Assembly (NCBI RefSeq): GCF_000003815.2
Contig: NC_049993.1
Span: 11,121,026-11,185,025, forward strand
Reading direction: 5' to 3'
DNA length: 64,000 bases
From: Branchiostoma floridae
Taxonomy: Eukaryota; Chordata; Leptocardii; Amphioxiformes; Branchiostomatidae
The notes below the pieces were generated by a model. The model saw only the letters and a list, made by a program, of their open reading frames with translations. It made no database searches and was not told where the DNA came from. This document shows, in pieces, positions 18,990 to 53,186 of this stretch (position 1 is its first letter; each line of letters opens with the position of its first letter). The position numbers and the translations under genes were made by a program.

Positions 18990-19133
18990 TCGTACATTAC
19001 ACACACATCCAGACTTCCAACTTTCTACACTGTCAGCCATTCCAACTATCACACCCGGCGAGCCCTGTCCAGACACGCCTGCACACCTGCGTGGGCACTG
19101 TCACTTTCACACAGACTGAGCAGGACGTCCTAC

Positions 19134-22100
19134 CGTGCTGCTGCATGTATCCGGCCACAAACAGGTCCAGCTCCCGCACCGATATGCTGATGTGGTGGGG
19201 CTGGACGCAGATGGTGGGGTGCGTGCAGTTGGCCGACTTGACCAGCCGCTCCCCGTCCGTGCTCTCCAGCGGGATGCCCTTGAACAGGATGACCATCACC
19301 AGGTCCAGCCGCCACACCTTGTCGGCCTGGCGCAGGCAGTCGATCCTCCGCATCTTCCCCTTCTGGTCGGGGTTGGACATGACGCAGCTCGGCGGCTTTT
19401 TTCCCGTCACGCTCAAGACAAAGTCCTCTCGGTACTCGGGCCGGATGTCCTTCCGCAGCTTGGCCAGGAGCCGCGACGCCCACTTCTGCTTCACCTCCGG
19501 CTTCTCGCTCAGGAGCTCCTCCTTGACTTGACGCTCCTCCTCGGGGGTCATCCTCTTCTCGTGCTTCTTGTAGTACTTGCGTTTGCGCGCCTGCAGGTTG
19601 AACCAGGTGTACGCAAACGACTTGACGTGAGGCAGCGGAGCCTCAATGAAGGGATGGAACTCGTCCTGAACAAGCAAAAGGAAGAAAAAAAGACAAAACG
19701 TCAGCCATATGTCTACATCCCTGACATGAGACACACAAGGGATTGAAATCAATATCTGTCTGAAAGACTCTTTGGTAGAGGGAAGGCGGACCTTCAGTTT
19801 GAGTTTGTGTATCCTTTGGCCATTAAGGGACCTAAACTTCCTTGCCATAAACATATCATAGAAACCTATGGATGATAAAAGCACAGGTATTTGTGTAGGA
19901 TCACCATACTCATCTGTGATAATAAATTACAGTACATGTATCACCATATACATACACTACTAAGTATATAAGTACATGAGTTTGTTTTGTTAGTTTGTAT
20001 TAGTGCAAGTTGATAGGTAGGTTCTCAAGAACAGGATTGGGCATATATCGGCCAGGACACATATAAAGAACTAAGTCATTAATGAGTAGGTTACCACAGA
20101 ATTAAGGAATTGCAAGAGAAAGTTATTTGAGTAAAAAAATACCACTGAGCGCTTATTTTCATGACATATATCGACTTCTAAAAAATGTAATAGTTTTGCA
20201 GCTATTATGCTTTTATTTGAAATCAGGATGGCGCCATATGTGATATTGATCAGTAGTACATAATCAGGACCCAGTCTAAGGCTTGACTGACTGATATTTC
20301 TGGAGTTCTTTTCTCTGCACAACATATGGGGGAAAACAATGTGGGGTCGTGCCACGTACTCAAGAGTTCCCAAAACATCCAAATTCCAAGGCGTCCCCAA
20401 GTCGTTCAAGTTACCTAAGAGGTGCTGGCATCTCGTTTAACATTTTGTGCCTCATATTTTCTGTGATCCGTGATGGCCGCGCGGGGAGGGGGCGTGTCCC
20501 GCTTTTCTCTCGCACGAGACACTTGCGATCATCTCCGGAGACAATGCTGTCTGAGTCACCGGCCGCGGGATCGCGTTACGCTTCTGGTACGGCACAGAAC
20601 CGCAGGAATTTGAGAAAATAGGAGGATGGCAGGAAGCTGGGAGGAGATGGCACCAGGGGACGGCAAACAACACAGGAAGTTTCTGAACTTGACACTGGGA
20701 GGAAACTCAACAAACGTAGGTTGAGCCACATGCCTCACTCAACAAACGTCAGTGTCGCTACGGCAACGAACAGGTTGCCATGACAGTGGAGACATGGTAG
20801 AACGTGGTACATGCATGGTTGCATCAGATTCAGGAATGGTGGATTAAGGTATAACTGTTACTTACGTAGCAGCCTGCAAGGCAAAAACTGCTTTAACTTT
20901 TCCCAGGTTTAAACGGAGTAAAAGAATATGAACATGCAAATACGATAAAGTTTAAAAAATTAGTGCTTTTCCCCTTCTCGAAAAATATGCAGGTAAGGAA
21001 TTTGTAGACTTTTCCGTACAAAGAGAAATATGCCACAAAATAATACAGATCTATAGCAGTCTTGACACACTTTCAATTTTGTAAGTAATAAATTTTTCAC
21101 ATGCGGGAGAATTGTCCCATGGGACACATTCCACTTGACACAGTGTCTGCAGTTACATCATAATGTGCCACACTTTCACTTTCAGCGTAGCTATGGCAAT
21201 CTTCCCTCTGGTTTGGAGGTCGGCCAGGTCAAGATAACTACTATGGTAAGACAGTAAACCGGGTCCTTTTGGGCTAAGGTTAGCCAAGCAGTCCAACCAA
21301 CCATGGATCCAACCCAGCATTCTGGTGACAGGAAACAATGAATAATATGCCAGAAAATCATTCTCATAATTTTGACATTTTGTGAGTTCATATTTACAGC
21401 TGCAGATTTGACATGGGCACAACTTGAAATTTTTCCCTTCAGTTTTTTTACAAATATAATTTTAAGTTGCTAACGCTACTTGTCTCAAAAAATTATTACT
21501 TCAAAATCATGCTGATGGTAAATATTTTCGACTGGTGTTTTCCTTTCATCTGTTGCTCCATTTGTATTGTATGAAGAATGACAACTGATCCTAAAGGTAG
21601 CCAATAAACAAAAACAGCTGAAAGTAAAAGGACTACACCTTAATAATTTGTTTTCATATAATATTAAACTAGAAAGTCATGATCAAGCGAATTAAGAATA
21701 TTAACGTAAACAACTTCAGAACGTAGCGTTACGTATAATCCCACAACATATAGAGCTCGATCTAAGCCTTTGCCGGTCTTCAAGGCAGAGGAAAACCGCT
21801 GACATATCGCGAGGCAGTGAAAGTAATTTTGCCCAATGAGTCAGACGCACGTCGCATTAAATGTTAGTGGTGGGGAGGGGGGCGTTGTCTCGTCACGTAC
21901 AAACCGTCGCCTACAAAAATGGCCGGTTAACACCGGGACGGTAGCACGGGACAGTCCTTGTCACGGCAGTTTCGTACCAAAAATTCACGAAAGATGACAC
22001 GCTAGACAACACATGAAGTACATATGATACGTATGGGGGTGGGGTGGGGGGTGACATGCCCACACGTAAACAACAGCACGTCGCACTGCGCACTGGTGCC

Positions 22101-28299: not shown

Positions 28300-28935
28300 C
28301 TCAGCCCAGGGCCTCCCAAAGGTATATTGTATACACCAAAGCCGATGCTGCATAGGAGCAAGTGCTACCACAGTCTGTGGTCATGGCTGTATGGCAGTCA
28401 AGTATGGCTGGTAAACTTTTACATCTATCTATCCCCATAATGTAACCAACCTGACTTTCCATTGTCCTTAAGACCTTAATTTTGAAAAGTTATCTTGTGA
28501 CAACACTGTCTGTACAACAGCTTCATCAAGTCATTCTCTATTCTACATAATTTTTTAATGGCTAAATTGAAAAATGCATATACCCCAGTACAGCACATTC
28601 AAAAGTGTAGTATCATTAAGAAATGTAGATACAATGTTAGAGCCGTATACACACAGCCATAGTGGTCTAGTTCTGCAACTGTAGTTCATATTGCTGACAG
28701 TAATTTTCACATTTATACACATGTACGTAGTCATAGTACATTGATTACAATTAGATTAGGAAAGTCAGATTGCAAGAAAGTTTGTAGGAAAATCAGCTCC
28801 ATTTGTCTGTAGTAGGTGCACTAGTCAGGTGCACCAATAAGCTAAAATGTTGAAGTCCCTCCTGAAAACGAGGCATAGCTATAAGATTTTTTGATTCCTA
28901 GCAGCCATGGCTTCTTTATGATTAATAATTCCATC

Positions 28936-29507
28936 TACATGTGCCTGTAGTAAGAGCCCCTACGTGTGCCTGTAGTAAGAGCCCCTACATGTGCCTGTAG
29001 TAAGAGCCCCTACATGTGCCTGTAGTAAGAGCCCCTAAATGTGCCTGTAGTAAGAGCCCTTACATGTGCCTGTAGTAAGAGCCCTTACATGTGCCTGTAG
29101 TAAGAGCCCTACATGTGCCTGTAGTAAGAGCCCTACATGTGCCTGTAGTAAGAGCCCCTACATGTGCCTGTAGTAAGAGCCCCTACATGTGCCTGTAGTA
29201 AGAGCCCCTACATGTGCCTGTAGTAAGAGCCCCTACATGTGCCTGTAGTAAGAGCCCCTACATGTGCCTGTAGTAAGAGCCCCTACATGTGCCTGTAGTA
29301 AGAGCCCTTACATGTGCCTGTAGTAAGAGCCCTTACATGTGCCTGTAGTAAGAGCCCTACATGTGCCTGTAGTAAGAGCCCTACATGTGCCTGTAGTAAG
29401 AGCCCCTACATGTGCCTGTAGTAAGAGCCCCTACATGTGCCTGTAGTAAGAGCCCCTACATGTGCCTGTAGTAAGAGCCCCTAAATGTGCCTGTAGTAAG
29501 AGCCCCC
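28936..29507 (-). repeat. 25-bp minisatellite overlapping the ZDHHC21 stop codon
   Basis: Twenty-three head-to-tail copies of a 24-25-bp unit (plus strand TGTGCCTGTAGTAAGAGCCC, then CTACA). Unit ends vary: CCCCTACA, CCCCTAAA, CCCTTACA and CCCTACA. The variants are ordered, with two copies of CCCTTACA followed by two of CCCTACA occurring twice, ten units apart. The rightmost copy encodes the last residues and stop of ZDHHC21 on the minus strand; the rest should be 3' UTR. Confidence 0.95.
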
Positions 29508-32500
29508 AGCCTGTGCTGTTATTGCCCGTCTCCTGCGCAGCGGCCACAGCCAGCACAGCACATTCTTGGTCCCACAGATATCCGAGAAGGCCTCGTGGAT
29601 TGCACGTGGACTGGGTCTATGGGTAAAAAAAAAGGCCAGCTATAAAAGTTACCCAAATGTTCGACTGAACAGCTCCAGTCCAATTTTAGTGTTGGAAATT
29701 GCAATCTAACTTTTCCAGAATGTTTCCTACCAACACAGATGAACTTTCAAGTTAAGGTATAAAAGTTGATAACCAGGCTTAATCAATGTTGATCTACTGT
29801 TAATTTCATGATTTTTTTCTATTCATTTTACCACATTTGTGGAAGGATTGACAAAGCAGGTGACCATCACCTATTGGAGAATGAATGAATGAATATTTAA
29901 CTTGATATACCAGCAATGTTTAACTTAACTCTTTGCTGTAACATTGCAATACTATATGTGGAAAAACAATGCAAGTCGATGCAGTTTGTGGAATCATAAA
30001 AAGACAGTGACTACTTACATTCCTGATCTGAAGTAAGGGTCTGCCAAGTTTTCCAGTGTTGTTCTATCCTGGAGTAGGAGAGAGAAATGTGATACGTTTA
30101 CTACTGACTGGATGAGAGGAACTATCCTCTAGATGTCCCTCGTAGGAGTGGTTATCGTATAGGTAGTATTCAGCATTTGATTATACTGCTGCTGGGATCC
30201 CTGACACAGGGGTAGGCAGCAGTCGGCTAGTCTTCACACCATGCTTTCTTGTGGCCCTGCTCTAATAAATTTCCCTCAGATCCTTTTTTGGGAAGCATTT
30301 GAGATGGCCATATGACTGAAAGTAACATATGATTTGCCTCACTGCATACACCACCAGACTTAAACAATGTTTTACTACATAAGTTGCCTGTGTTCAAAGG
30401 ACAAATTATCTATAAAAAGGTACTAAGAGTAACTAAGATGAGTAAATTTATATTTCTGCTGCTACTTACATGTATAAAAACTAGGAAAATACACATTTTT
30501 AAAATGTAACCAAAGTCCTAAACACCACAAGTCTACAATTAACTCACTATGAGGATGTTGAAGGTTTGTCCGAATACAAGACCAATAGCTGCAGGGAAGA
30601 AGAGCACACCCTGTCCGCAGGTGAACCATAGCAGGGGGCGGGTGTAACTGTACGGGAAAATGTCCTGCAATAAAAACATGATTTTTGTTGTTTAACTGTG
30701 CATTAATTATGTAAATAAGGTTTTTAACATGTGATCATTATATGTGGTCATTGATAACATCCTGCCACTCAACTGTGGACCTTCATATGGAAAAACATAA
30801 CTGCAAGACAGACCCAAAACAAAACCTCCCCGTGAATTAGTAGCCTCCTCCATTGACCCTGTGACCTGTCATGTCTGATACCTCCTGTCACTCGCGCAAG
30901 TCCGACCTTTGCAGTGGCACCTCGGACACAGGCAACAAACCATTTAAAGGGTTTGATCTGTTTTACTGGCGCATTTCCATATTACATTTCCATGGGTTCC
31001 GATATGTACTAAGTACATCATGTTTCATCAATATTTGTGTAGTTTTCATTGAAGAGGTTTATAGTTCTGTTTTTCTCCATTCAATGTTTCTTTACCTTTT
31101 TGCAGCAAACAAGATTGTTAACAAGTTTGAGAGTACTTTTTGTCCCATCCATGACAGAAAAATTAACTATAAACAAACAATGAGGTAAACATCCTAAAAG
31201 GTGACTACCGTATTGCAGTAGCTGCACGGCGGTGAGTAGTAGAGATGGAGCACTGCAAGTGCAATACTCATGGAGACCAGTATTAGGGTGTAATACAGGA
31301 GCTGCATGAAGAGCCAGTGGTTTTCCTCCCCTACACAGTTGTTAATCCTGCAAAACACAACATATGCATAAACATGACACAAATATTGAGCTAGAGAACA
31401 TTTCTTTTAAATGTTTGTCCCACAATGATATTTGGAATGGCACATGTATTTTCAATGGTTCTGAAGGATATCATTGATCACATACTCAAGAAAAGAAAAC
31501 TGAAGGAGTACGACCATGCACTGGGACCAAACTATCATACAAGGAACCGTCGAGGGAGGAAGAAAGATGGATAGACAACAAAAAATATGGGAGGATGATA
31601 TCACAGAATGGATAGGCACACGACTAAGTGAAATATTAGATAAAACAGAAAACTGGTTGCCCCAACAGTGACAAAGTTACACTAAGGGATAGATGAGATG
31701 ATGAGATGTGTACTTACCATGGACAGTGATGGTCCATTTTCCGGACACACTGCTGACATCTCCTGCAGTGGTGGGAACGGGGTGGTCTCCTGATCTGACA
31801 CACTTTGCAGATCGTCCAATCAGCAGCCTCTGTTTCAAAGACACATTTAGTTAAACACTTCCCAATTGCAGCAAACATGATTTCATTTGTGAATGGGTGA
31901 AGGAGAGGAGAAAGAAAGAGAGACAGAGAGAATGAACTGATTACATTTAGGCTCCTACATGCCATTTTGTAGTAGTAGTAGTACATAAATGTACCATTGA
32001 GAATGTGCAACACAACTCACCAATGTCTTCACCATTTTCATCATCTTTGCAAGAATAATAAGTTTGGAAAAAGAAGCAGTCAGAATAAAACCGTAGTTTG
32101 AAAGGCAGCAACCATGGAAAAGAAGACCTAAGCTAAAAATGGACTATGCCAAACTAACTGTTACATGATTACAGTACTAGTACCTTGACCATCAATAGTA
32201 ATCATACATTCCTCATCTTGAACTGTACATACACATCTAATGTCACAATTACGGATGAATGTTGTATTCTTACTAAGATGTTGTATCCACAGGAAAGGTT
32301 CTCCATAGACATTGTTATTAGGGTAAATGTTTTTTTCTTTGTTTTTTTCGCTGCTCTACTGACCAACAGCGGATGGCTGGATGTCCAGTGGCACAGTTCC
32401 AGGGTTGGTGGTCACTGATAGGTACAGACACACCACCGTCATGATGGACATCAGGAAGTAGACTAGAGATGGGACAACAAAAATTCTGTTAGTATGACTA

Positions 32501-33368
32501 TAAAGACAAGGGTTTGAAAAAATTGAAACATAGAAATACTTACATTTGTGCAGTTTATACCTGTGCAAATGTTGTGATATGTTAAGATAGAAAAGCTTAC
32601 TTTTTGACTCCTAGCTAAAACATTCAGAGTTATACAGGGCTCTAGCCAGCTCAAATTTTTTTTCCGTCAGCCAATTCCCATTGTCGCGAAAACACTATTC
32701 CAGGAGTTAGAAAGAGTCTGAACTGAGACCTTGAAAAACTGGTTTTAATGAGATTATCGTATGCGAAAGGGCGCCGACACACATCGTCAACAATAATAAC
32801 AATAGAAAAACAAACAGTGTGTGGCTTTTACGGCCATGGACAGCGTCCCCAAGCCGCCTGTAGCTTCCACCAAGGATTTTTGTCCGTCAAGGTTGACGGA
32901 TTGGTTTTAAAATTTTTCCGTCACACGCAGCAAATTTCCATCAATTGACGGAAAAACGGACGCTGGCTAGAGCCCTGGAGTTATATGTAGTATGTGTAGG
33001 TGGTTTGTATGAGGGTAGGAAGCTTGACTATCCTATATGCCAAGTTTTCTAAATGTAATGTGAAATTTTCAATAACATTTTGCATTACAATTTACATAGC
33101 AGTTACTTATAAGTTATAATTACAAATTATGCAGAATCAAAATGGCAGCTATTGGAAAAATAAGGAAAAGGTCTGCAAACTTACAGATAAGGGTTCCTAA
33201 CGGCAGCTTGCCATCATAGTACATGGGCACGATAACGAGGCTGGGGATGAACGCGGTGTTGTACGCCCAGATGAAGGAGATGACTCCGAGCGCGCACCAC
33301 CCCTGGGGGTCGTACAGGAAACGTACGCGGACCCCGCACGGCAAGCGAAGCCTGGACCCCTCCCACAT
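29481..33368 (-). CDS. ZDHHC21: ZDHHC21-type palmitoyltransferase (DHHC), complete
   Basis: A membrane S-acyltransferase that attaches palmitate to cysteines of target proteins, probably at Golgi or plasma membrane. The exons are 33368-33185, 32462-32364, 32044-32021, 31829-31718, 31347-31209, 30664-30548, 30068-30019 and 29616-29481. All junctions are GT-AG and in phase; the total is 861 nt, 286 aa (human protein 265 aa). Membrane segments fall at about residues 24-47, 58-80, 152-178 and 203-230. The cysteine-rich domain reads [18 protein letters not shown], then the catalytic DHHC at 135-138 (Cys138 takes the acyl group) and [13 protein letters not shown]. The DPQGWC start and the [18 protein letters not shown] tail match the ZDHHC21 subfamily rather than other DHHC enzymes. 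The start is the first ATG before [13 protein letters not shown]; the frame is open further upstream, so a longer N-terminus is possible. Oddity: the last codons and stop lie in a minisatellite. Confidence 0.93.
31480..31710 (+). mobile_element. 3' end of a non-LTR retrotransposon (LINE), decayed
   Basis: The plus strand encodes, with stops and frameshifts, the kind of C-terminal tail found in many LINE ORF2 proteins (RRGRKK in one frame, then [20 protein letters not shown] in another). A GATGAGATG-rich 3' terminus follows. It lies in a ZDHHC21 intron, opposite to the gene. The exact clade is unclear. Confidence 0.6.
32635..32977. mobile_element. hAT-like MITE with 8-bp target-site duplication
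   Basis: A 343-bp element with terminal inverted repeats CAGGGCTCTAGCCAGC and GCTGGCTAGAGCCCTG. It is flanked on both sides by the same 8 bp, GAGTTATA (32627-32634 and 32978-32985). The CAGGG ends and 8-bp duplication are hallmarks of the hAT superfamily. There is no transposase. It sits in the first intron of the ZDHHC21 coding region. Confidence 0.92.
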
Positions 33369-36755: not shown

Positions 36756-39700
36756 TCACAAACACCCACACGCCTCTGCACGCATGCTGTTCATCTTCTG
36801 TACGACGTACGCGCCTGTCTTCTCCCGGTACAGCACCGAGATGGGCGACAGCTTGGTCGGGGTACAGCACGGCTTGGGCACAGAATGGTGCTTTGAGGGT
36901 TTGGCCTGAAAACAAAATAAAAAATAACGAAAATTAATGAACGCACTGTAGAGTTAATTTGTCTTGTCTGTTTCAAAATACCAATGGCATTATAAATCAG
37001 GTTCTCTTTTCAATATAGTTCAGTGAAAAGATATAGTTTTCAGACATTCAGGAGTTTGCTCAGAAAGTAATTGTATTTAAAGATAAAGTATAGGACGTTC
37101 CCCTGTAGTGCCAACGGAAGTCGCTAGGTTAGCTCAAAATCAAACTCGATCTTTGTCTTCCCAAGACCATACCCACGTACCAACTATCGTCTCAATCCAG
37201 CCATGACTTATATGCTAAGTACTAAGTAAGCGGAAACAAGAAAACTGATACATACAAACACAGAGACCCAAATGCACACTGACACATCAAAGGCAGATTT
37301 AACTACATGCAGATGTACAGAGTAATGCTGACGTACCTGTCGGATGAGGTTGCGGAGGAAGGCGTGGTTACTGGCGTTGAGATGCTTGGAGATGAGTGGG
37401 GTGGGGCATGTGCCTGCGCAGTAGTTAGCTTTGTAACCGGTAGGGTGGACAATCCAACCATTCCATTGCAGGTCCGCAAAATCCACCTGCCTGCATGGAA
37501 AGAAATGTTATAATCACTTAGTGTTGAAAAAATTATTGTGCGTTTTGATCATACTCTATAATACAAACACATCACAAGCTACATTTTCAACATCACTAAA
37601 AGACGAGAAGAAGCCGAAGAAATGTATTAGAGTAGTTTTAGAACCCATGTTTTAGATTAGTACTAGAAGCCATCTCAATGTTATCATTTGTACTGTATTA
37701 CGACCTCTGTATCTACATGCCTGTATTTAGTCCGATATGTATGAATGTACAATAAATGCCTACATTATTGTTATCATTATCAAACACAATTAATAGAACA
37801 AATCTGATATCAGGCCAAATAGATCTGACTTAGAGGCTAAGGAAATGGCAGTTGTGTTACCATTCTCGCAGTCTACAGTCTCCTCTTGCGTCCCTCCTGG
37901 TCCGATGAGCGGCGTCTTTACCAGGCGTGTCCTGTCCGGTAATCTTCCCGACGTGGGGAGGGGAGTCGTCAGTAGCTGTTGGCAAGAAACAAAAGTCATG
38001 ATGTAAACTTAAAGTTCTTTTGGTGATATCGACGTAGAACTGAAAACGATTTCTCGTAAAGGATGACCAATAGAAACTGCACCAATAGCCATTGCGTGGA
38101 AGACTAAAACATCCCACGGTTTCTAATTCAAGCATCGTGACATGCATTCTAGTAAAGTCGGCAAGCCAAGTTCTGCTGTCCTATCTTTCTTTCAATAAAC
38201 AAGTAGACAATTTTATCATTAAGCTAGTCCTTCGTACAAAGAGCTTTCATTGTTCCCTTCCGCTGAAGTTCGCTGTCAACAACCCAGAAAAGGGCGTCTC
38301 CTGTCCTTGGGCGTCCATTTTAGGCAACACATAACCAAAAATATGAAATGTAAACAAATATTACTGACGGATGCAGACACGGCTTATCTTACATAGATAA
38401 TACAACTGTCTGTTTATCGTAAGTTTCATCAGCAAGTCGCCAAGAGAACCGCTGGCAGTGTACAGAGAACAAGCGATCGAGTGTAACATTGACAACAATT
38501 ATTATCGCCCATGACAAACAGACGACGTGAGACCACCCAAGCTAAGTCTGGGAATGGACAGGCCATGGTCATCCGCCACCTCTTCCGGTAAGAGCCGGAT
38601 GTTTGGAACACATGCGAGGACAAACACCTGTTGTTAGGGTTATAACGCCCAAGCGAACATCTTCCAACATGTTTTGATCTGCGTCAGAAGATTTTGTGTT
38701 TGCCCGACTTCTTCTTCTTTTGTTGTAAATGTATGTTGTTGTAGAAAAACATGTTCCTGTCCCACGGCCTCAAATTCAAAGATTCAGATACATTGTAAAT
38801 TAGTATCTAATTTTGTTTTAGGTCTACATCTAATTACATTCTAAACAGAGCCACAAAATTATTGTATCGCAGGTCACGGAGAGGGCTAGGGGTTGGGAAA
38901 ATCTGGATTCATAGACTTGAGCGTATATTCTGTGTCTTCCAGCACGGGGTTTTGTTCTTTTGTACTTTGTAAAGACGTGTTTTTATCTAATCAAAAATAG
39001 ATATGCCTGTCCTTGGTGTTGCTGACAGATGTTTTAGGCATGATGACTTTGCGTATGTCCATTTGAGCTTTCTAACTGGCGACTTGCTTGCCTCGAATTA
39101 TGCTACTGAATGCACCAAGAACTTAGTTCCCCATATGCATAATGTTACATATCAAGTCTCAATGATACATGTATATCAGTTGATGTTTAACATTATGTAC
39201 CTGTATGCAGAACTGTTTTGTATTCTATCTTGTGTTTGATGGTTCACTTGTGATTGATAGCTTAAACGGCGTTATTGTCGGAATCATCTTACCTGTAGAT
39301 GTATCTTCAAGGTGCGCCTCTGCTCCAGATGTCTGCGTTTCAGGTGTACTCCTTTCATCCCGTGAGTCCTTCTGCTTCCGGTCCTTAGACTTGCGGCGAT
39401 GCAGCAGCTCGGGTCGGTCCAGCCCGAAGTACAGCATGAGTGCCGGGCCGCGGCTGCCGGGGGACAGCTGGTACAGATCCCGCAGGACGTGCGGACCCAG
39501 GTCGCTACCGTGCCTCGTCTGTTGAACAAGAAACAACAACGTTATCATATCTGTCTTTATGTGTACAAGATTACAGACACAACAAGAGGTACTGTGTTAA
39601 TCTTGCAAGAATACAGTTGGAGGACCTGTCCTGCCGGGCCCGTATATATACGGGTTGCACATATATAAAGTATGTATTTGGTTACACTGTCTGTGTAACA

Positions 39701-51700: not shown

Positions 51701-52649
51701 CCTGCAGCATTTTGTTCTCAATGGACTCTTCTTTTGCTTCTCTCTCTGAAGAACAAGAAGTATCGAAAGAAAATGAGTCACTGCTGTGTGAGTGCTGTCT
51801 CTTCCGTATCGAATGTTTCCGCCGGAGGACATCCAACCGTTGAATCTTCTGTGAATCCCCTAATTCTTTTGATGAACAGGGTGTACATTCTACGCAATAA
51901 CGTATTCAGAACTAAATTCTAGATGTTTTCTATCCTTACTTGTCACATGAGGTAACACGCTCTGACTCTTGAGTTGATAAATGGTTGATTATCTTTATTG
52001 TATGTTCAGAAACATACATAAGGCCAATATGATCGATGTGGCTGTCACCCAATATTGTAGGCAATTATTTATCTGACAATAACTGACAATAACAGCATAC
52101 ATACTCACTTCCAATGGAGTACACCTCTACGTCGAGGTAGGTGAGATTTCCTCCACAAAAACTGTTGATGTTGTGGCCCATCCCAACGCCGTAAGTGTTA
52201 CCAATGTTGCCCTGTCCGTTTGCACTGACAAAATTGCCATTATTCGCTGGGCTCGTACCAGTGAAGGCCAGGAAGTCGTGACCAGCACCGAACATAGGGC
52301 CATAACCTTGATGGTTATACAAACAATGAGCCATGTTACCGTTAGCTGGAAACTTCAAAGGATCGAATTTGTTGGCGTTTGAAAGTCGGAAGAGAAAAGA
52401 ATCCGGGGCTTGAACCCAGTCACCCTGGCTGGCCCACGACTGGCTGGCGTACCCCCCAAAGACCCAGCCGATGGCGTTGTATGCGACCGTGACGGTGGGG
52501 CCCTTGTTGTCACAGAGCTGGTGGAAGGTGGCAGGATTGTAGCCCTGTGTGGAGGCCTTAAACAAGAGCTCAAACCCTGCGTCAGGCTTCCCCAGCCACT
52601 CCCGCAGCTGATCCTCGTCTTGTTCAGTCATTCGCTTCCTCAGAGCCAT
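48742..52649 (-). CDS. IFI44/IFI44L-like protein: TLDc domain plus GTPase, complete
   Basis: It belongs to the interferon-induced protein 44 family, linked in vertebrates to antiviral responses; its activity here is inferred. The exons are 52649-52109, 51745-51664, 51230-51032, 50518-50369, 49896-49725, 49161-49061 and 48951-48742. All junctions are in phase; the total is 1455 nt, 484 aa. Residues 8-180 form a TLDc domain (FHQLCDNKGPTVTV, GWVFGGYASQSW, TYLDVEVYSIG). A linker with WRKVHWSDEERERL follows, then the GTPase: P-loop GQVGSGKS (237-244), G3 DTMG (295-298), GNVPDRYQF and G4-like TKVD (390-393). The C-terminus keeps the family's ILALSALAQILGFADDYLDE. A non-coding first exon ends at 53186 (CAG, gtaagt) and splices to 52662. 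Human IFI44L has the same TLDc-GTPase order in a slightly shorter protein. Confidence 0.93.
49205..49515. other. GC-rich non-coding block in an IFI44-like intron
   Basis: A roughly 300-bp block with strings such as GGGACCCGGTGGGGCACTGG and CCGAGGGGTACCCCCGG contrasts with AT-rich intron sequence on both sides. It includes a local palindrome TTTAAGTCGGACTTAAA. It may be part of an inserted element; no termini were identified. Confidence 0.4.
50061..50185. mobile_element. Fold-back MITE
   Basis: CTCGTTAAC, CGTTTGAAACG and ATCGATGCCAT on the left are matched by GCATCGACCGTTTCAAATGG and CGTTAACGAG on the right. It sits in an intron of the IFI44-like gene. Confidence 0.7.
50660..50801. mobile_element. 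MITE with TTACTCTCCAAGCAG termini
   Basis: A 142-bp element. The left end is TTACTCTCCAAGCAGAGGTT, AGGCTCCGGCT; the right end is AGCCGAGGCCTAACCCC, TGCTTGGAGAGTAA. It lies in an intron of the IFI44-like gene. It is comparable in size and layout to the LanceleTn MITEs described from amphioxus; identity with any of them is not claimed. Confidence 0.85.
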
Positions 52650-53186
52650 GCTGCCTATAGACCTGCTCAATGAAGGAAACAAGTCTAACGTTAGTGTCAA
52701 TAACTTAACAATTACTAAGCGGTCACGACAAGAGATCACAAGAGGTTGCTCATCAAGCAATCAAGGCCACCAACAAGGCAGCACAGATATGAAGAGCTAC
52801 GATCAGTTAAACGAATGGCGTCTGTGAAACTTGTAACTTTTTATTATTAGAGGATACCGTACCAGACAAACTGAGGACGAGGCTCAGTTTCAATCAATCC
52901 TTATAGGTTGTTCCGTTACATTTACTGAGCACGCAACTGAGGACGAAAATCCGATAGTATACCGGTATAAAATATATTTGTTACCAATAGAGGGAAATAT
53001 CGTTCGAAAATTTCACGAAGAATTAACTAAGCTTGTGTATTAGCTGCGACCAATGCACACAGAAGCATAAGTTCAACGCCCAACTGTACTTAAAAAAATA
53101 AAGCAGTTAAGGATCCTTGTTGGAAAAGCCTAATGTCAGATCCGTTACGGTCCATTGTCTGTATCTGATGATGCGCACTACTTACC

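Follow-up and report, generated by a model that had tools for sequence, protein, structure and literature searches.

The coding sequence of a ZDHHC21-like gene in the lancelet Branchiostoma floridae ends within a minisatellite, one copy of which forms the last seven codons and the stop codon, with 22 further copies following beyond. We read this repeat as a mirage-like array at the edge between coding sequence and 3′ UTR that resembles the known gene-edge repeats of lancelets. It is fairly likely (probability of about 0.6) that the array was founded at the coding end and multiplied by slippage and exchange, as a coding/UTR counterpart of the mirages. The window analysed, that is, the whole stretch of 64,000 nucleotides, corresponds to bases 11121026-11185025 of contig 15 in an assembly of 513,431,437 bases and 431 contigs, all of which was searched.

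The gene occupies the minus strand from 33368 to 29481 and comprises seven coding exons, with limits picked by eye from open frames, that are joined across six GT-AG introns into 278 open codons plus a stop. The coding exons are listed below.

33185..33368, minus strand: coding exon 1, with the ATG at 33368 (open frame, GT-AG joins)
32364..32462, minus strand: coding exon 2 (open frame, GT-AG joins)
31718..31829, minus strand: coding exon 3, DHHC cysteine-rich domain (open frame, Pfam)
31209..31347, minus strand: coding exon 4, with a weak donor, GTAGTC (open frame, GT-AG joins)
30548..30664, minus strand: coding exon 5 (open frame, GT-AG joins)
30019..30068, minus strand: coding exon 6, contains TTLE (open frame, GT-AG joins)
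29481..29616, minus strand: coding exon 7, the last (open frame; the acceptor TTTTTTTTTACCCATAG ends at 29617)

The predicted protein contains a DHHC domain (Pfam PF01529, E 2.1e-32), its best relative of solved structure is human DHHC20 (PDB, E 3.5e-20), and the TTLE encoded by exon 6 is presumably the TTxE motif of the family. The protein can be aligned globally, from end to end, with human ZDHHC21 (an approximate human sequence). Past the shared GT[K/R], 27 residues remain in the lancelet protein compared to 25 in the human one (approximate sequence); because the two proteins thus end within two residues of each other, the lancelet stop codon sits where a homologue stops. Downstream of the gene and on the same strand, the minus frame 19033-19926 represents an exon of the NFI family (pre-N and MH1 domains in Pfam; best E 6.9e-103 against the NFI chains of PDB). 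In human 9p22.3, NFIB and ZDHHC21 lie within one 0.65-Mb interval, according to one report (PMC3169541). The gene name ZDHHC21, which was part of the original prediction, therefore appears well supported by the DHHC domain, the end-to-end likeness to the approximate human sequence and the NFI neighbour, and on these grounds, together with the six GT-AG introns and the 278 open codons, we consider the gene model sound. Two other protein-coding signatures in the window are a partial TGF-beta domain in the minus frame 37208-37507, upstream of the ZDHHC21-like gene, and a TLDc domain in the minus frame 52065-52760. No paper that treats ZDHHC21 together with amphioxus was found in the open-licence literature searched.

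The array itself and its coding copy are located as follows.

28935..29506, minus strand: minisatellite, 23 copies of GGGGCTCTTACTACAGGCACATGTA (minus-strand unit; Tandem Repeats Finder, direct parsing, pattern count)
29481..29506, minus strand: copy 1, the coding end, GSYYRHI and the stop TAG at 29483-29481 (in-frame reading)

Tandem Repeats Finder reports a period of 25, with 23.0 copies and 97% matches, along with a higher-order period of 248 bp (2.3 copies) over the same interval. Direct parsing likewise resolves 23 copies, namely, 18 of 25 bp, four of 24 bp and one, the last, merging with the flank. The unit matches the window 23 times at up to 3 mismatches, compared to none in each of 100 shuffles. 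With head-to-tail units of 25 bp in 23 copies, the array falls squarely among minisatellites, in which many units of ~10-100 bp follow head to tail. The 23-copy, 25-bp array that had been predicted is thus confirmed by both methods; the range given for it, 28936-29616, starts one base late and consists of the array plus the remainder of the last coding exon.

The copies are differentiated by just four distinct variant events, all of which, as parsed, fall in the final seven positions of the 25-bp unit. This clustering is not significant (~0.09), and accordingly, an invariant 18-nt core as a mark of selection on the unit was rejected. The variant of copy 1 (ATTTAG) is seen again in copy 19, and the order of copies 2-8 reappears as copies 12-18, in agreement with the 248-bp higher-order period; an equally long repeat of copy order occurred in 408 of 20,000 shuffled orders (2%) and is, then, only moderately unlikely. 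Both recurrences are signs of block duplication inside the array.

The junction between gene and array is sharp. In the frame of the last exon, copy 1 (29506-29481, minus strand) reads GGC TCT TAC TAC AGG CAC ATT TAG, which bears out the prediction that the rightmost copy supplies GSYYRHI and the TAG. The acceptor of exon 7 sits 110 bp upstream of the array, and there is no sign of more of the unit inside exon 7 beyond copy 1 (p 0.69), so that a coding "copy 0" suspected by eye upstream of copy 1 is attributable to chance. Hence, exactly one copy is coding, the array has a sharp edge at the coding end, and the other copies (2-23) extend into the DNA beyond. All 23 copies retain SYYRH and an in-phase stop: read in the phase of copy 1, the five kinds of unit each give GSYYRH followed by I, M or T and a stop, and readthrough of the copy 1 stop would reach the next one after 24 more codons. 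Because the stop is in phase in every copy, the protein does not suffer when copies are gained or lost, apart perhaps from its last residue, and exchange between copies could alter only that residue, among I, M and T. Two arguments of the original prediction are affected. The first, that a unit whose length is not a multiple of three could persist only downstream of a stop, is unnecessary, given that with an in-phase stop in every copy the period is irrelevant once one stop precedes the remaining copies. The second, that length changes could alter the C-terminal tail, has to be narrowed, with the tail staying as it is and only its last residue being exchangeable.

Beyond the coding end, the minus strand contains no AATAAA from 29506 to 25000 (4.5 kb), and the array itself is free of all 11 poly(A) hexamers tried. 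The same hexamer scan detects TATAAA at 28717 on the minus strand, beyond the array, in addition to the following two features.

28915..28920, minus strand: CATAAA, the first tried poly(A)-like hexamer beyond the array, weak and possibly there by chance
28554..28559, minus strand: ATTAAA, a candidate poly(A) signal, which we take to be the nearest of the two commonest ones

Provided that no exon follows exon 7, the transcript most likely passes through the whole array, since no tried hexamer lies within it; the array is probably the start of the 3′ UTR, and, from the distribution of these signals, its earlier assignment to the 3′ UTR is probable. Some copies also resemble splice sites when scored with approximate splice weights: a donor-like CAT|GTAAGG is present in 4 copies of the array and an acceptor-like CTACAG|G in the 22 copies scanned. 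Cryptic splicing within the UTR via these motifs is possible.

Lancelet "mirages" are described, in two reports (PMC3087553, PMC3902484), as minisatellite-like arrays that span exon-intron boundaries, with examples in Adh3, the globins BflGb6 and BflGb9, and TnC. The same reports give units of 10-72 bp and somatic instability for the Adh3 mirage and contain a comparison of the repeats of PGBD5 to lancelet mirages (PMC3087553, PMC3902484). Judged by these descriptions, the ZDHHC21 array resembles the mirages in being a lancelet minisatellite that repeats the boundary of a coding exon, with a 25-bp unit within the Adh3 range, and in overlapping a coding exon while extending into non-coding DNA. 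Unlike the mirages, which span an exon-intron boundary and whose repeats in many cases contain splice signals, it spans the boundary between coding sequence and 3′ UTR and repeats the stop codon. Given that the splice boundary that defines a mirage is absent, the ZDHHC21 array is best termed mirage-like.

An apparent mirage was encountered in a genome sample of 20 stretches of 10 kb each, spaced by hand over 19 contigs. The first copy of this array (L023, 6075-7455, G000:C2, minus strand, 26.4 copies of 50 bp) includes the donor, CAG|GTAAGG, that belongs to an open exon (read by eye at ~7638-7448). In the region there are 16 occurrences of CAGGTAAGG and 10 of CATGTAAGG; Pfam detected no domain in this exon or in one further frame of the locus. 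Thus, one of the four sampled arrays appears to repeat the donor site at an exon end, and the ZDHHC21 array is one-sided in the same way, with a stop codon in place of the donor site.

Two human genes provide further points of comparison. SLC6A3/DAT1 carries a 40-bp VNTR in its 3′ UTR, past the stop. Like it, the ZDHHC21 array is a minisatellite that belongs to a membrane-protein gene and probably lies in its 3′ UTR; unlike in DAT1, one copy of the ZDHHC21 array forms the coding end and the stop. The last-exon VNTR of CEL, in contrast, is translated into part of the protein, which changes with the length of the VNTR; the ZDHHC21 array shares the location in the last exon, but only its copy 1 is translated. 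No lancelet array located at a stop codon was found in the open-licence literature searched.

The unit is private to this locus. Across the whole genome, it has 23 matches at up to 3 mismatches, all of them in the ZDHHC21 array, compared to 0 for the reversed control, and a DNA search with the array and its exon (skipping simple repeats and very common words) hits one place in the assembly, namely, this locus. At this stringency, a dispersed element as the seed is rejected, and the array therefore grew locally, as originally proposed. An array with a 25-bp period at 37622-37673 looked related, but the unit does not match it when up to 3 mismatches are allowed. A paralogue with the same end was rejected as well: a protein search of the genome gave 19 matches with E no higher than 0.001 (only the best candidates scored), namely, six of the gene's own exons and 13 matches elsewhere, none of which extends past residue 261 of 278.

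Under the preferred reading, the last seven codons and the stop of the ZDHHC21-like gene, a stretch of 25 bp, would have been duplicated in tandem and multiplied to 23 copies via slippage and unequal exchange, with copy 1 remaining the coding end and copies 2-23 becoming the beginning of the 3′ UTR. As each copy would be a whole boundary, with its codons and an in-phase stop, exchange between copies would restore an intact coding end. Growth would then be nearly invisible to selection on the protein, because every copy is a whole boundary, and this near-invisibility would have allowed the array to grow as large as it is. The array is most likely nearly neutral and self-buffering. What the sequence shows is the array, its frame, its uniqueness and a stop in each copy; that the array is transcribed as 3′ UTR, was founded by the coding end, spread by slippage and is neutral are points that we infer.

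Possible, if somewhat unlikely, is a chance overlap between an ordinary minisatellite and a stop codon, without any special link to gene ends, an explanation that is compatible with founding at the coding end. Its basis is the abundance of arrays. In the window and the small genome sample taken together, Tandem Repeats Finder reported 46 arrays with a period of at least 10, of which 37 are in the sample and 8 have at least 5 copies; arrays with a period of 10-100 and at least 5 copies number four in the 200-kb sample and one in the window. The four sampled arrays cover 2,377 of ~196,400 known bases, or ~1.2% (summed by hand), from which it follows that about one stop in 80 is expected inside an array by position alone. 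In this genome, it is thus no rare event for an array to cover a stop codon. This account, however, names no mechanism, and the edge copy, being identical with the last codons, must have been founded or rebuilt where it is; the privacy of the unit to the site also argues against it. Among the other sampled arrays, L026 7352-7718, which has 5 copies and a period of 72 bp, equal to 24 codons, may code for a repeat protein, and two further ones look non-coding (all judged by eye). The window also includes a tandem array of a 172-bp unit at 1683-2319 (3.7 copies, 97% matches).

The converse course of events appears unlikely: here the array would have arisen within the 3′ UTR, and gene conversion or slippage would later have carried it across the coding end, where one of its own copies took the place of the last codons and stop present originally. 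One feature on the distal side of the array is relevant here.

28783..28814, minus strand: possible degenerate copy of the unit in the phase of the array, 24 of 32 bases, suggestive only (flank test)

This candidate lies ~120 bp past the distal end of the array (28814-28783). Of eight overlapping tests made on the flanks, two gave it p values of 0.008 and 0.006, the latter being the best of the eight. Among 416 overlapping tiles from the rest of the window, none equals its score of 24, although the best comes to 23. The candidate may be left over from a once longer array on the UTR side, or be due to chance, and as a remnant it is equally compatible with an older UTR array, which detracts from founding at the coding end. 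The variant common to copy 1 and copy 19 also fits a UTR-first origin, in that the coding copy may exchange with the rest of the array. Against it, the protein ends near the homologous place, two residues beyond the human end (approximate sequence), and exactly one copy lies in the exon, at the array edge; invasion from the UTR need not have produced either arrangement.

Retention of the array for a regulatory use, as 22 near-identical sites or a long stem acting on mRNA stability, nuclear retention or RNA-binding proteins, is very improbable. The number of near-identical sites speaks for it, as does the predicted fold of the sense array, at -239.1 kcal/mol compared to -158.1 for whole-array shuffles (z -14.5), with z values of -5.4 for the sense and -2.7 for the antisense strand when five copies are folded. 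Yet the z of -14.5 disappears against tandem arrays of shuffled units, so that RNA structure as a function was rejected: the fold of six consensus units is ordinary, being equalled in stability by 35 of 400 arrays of six dinucleotide-shuffled units and 81 of 400 mononucleotide-shuffled ones, and the sense-antisense difference of six units was matched by 71 of 400 shuffled-unit arrays. Rfam assigned the array to no family at the gathering threshold, and youth or turnover accounts for the near-identity of the copies. Even less probable is an artefact of the assembly or the gene model, with a wrong copy number or a gene that ends elsewhere, for which the difficulty of assembling a 248-bp higher-order repeat could be cited but against which stand the specific variant copies and their order, a gene model that is complete and homologous to its end (approximate human sequence) and the single locus matching array and exon.

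With founding at the coding end as the preferred reading, it can be proposed, although as a generalization this is doubtful, that lancelets hold a class of "stop-codon mirages" that are founded by the coding end and built of units each serving as a full gene end that can replace any other. If this is the case, the 3′ UTR could lengthen through such arrays, and exchange between copies could switch the last residue (I, M or T), while the reading frame would never be broken; the arrays would represent a general route to new, fast-changing 3′ UTRs. Mirages in lancelets would thereby be a phenomenon of coding-sequence ends as well as of splice boundaries, and the fact that each unit is a whole working boundary suggests why arrays of this kind are tolerated. 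In a single-locus array of near-identical copies, the turnover between the coding copy and the non-coding ones could be tracked directly.
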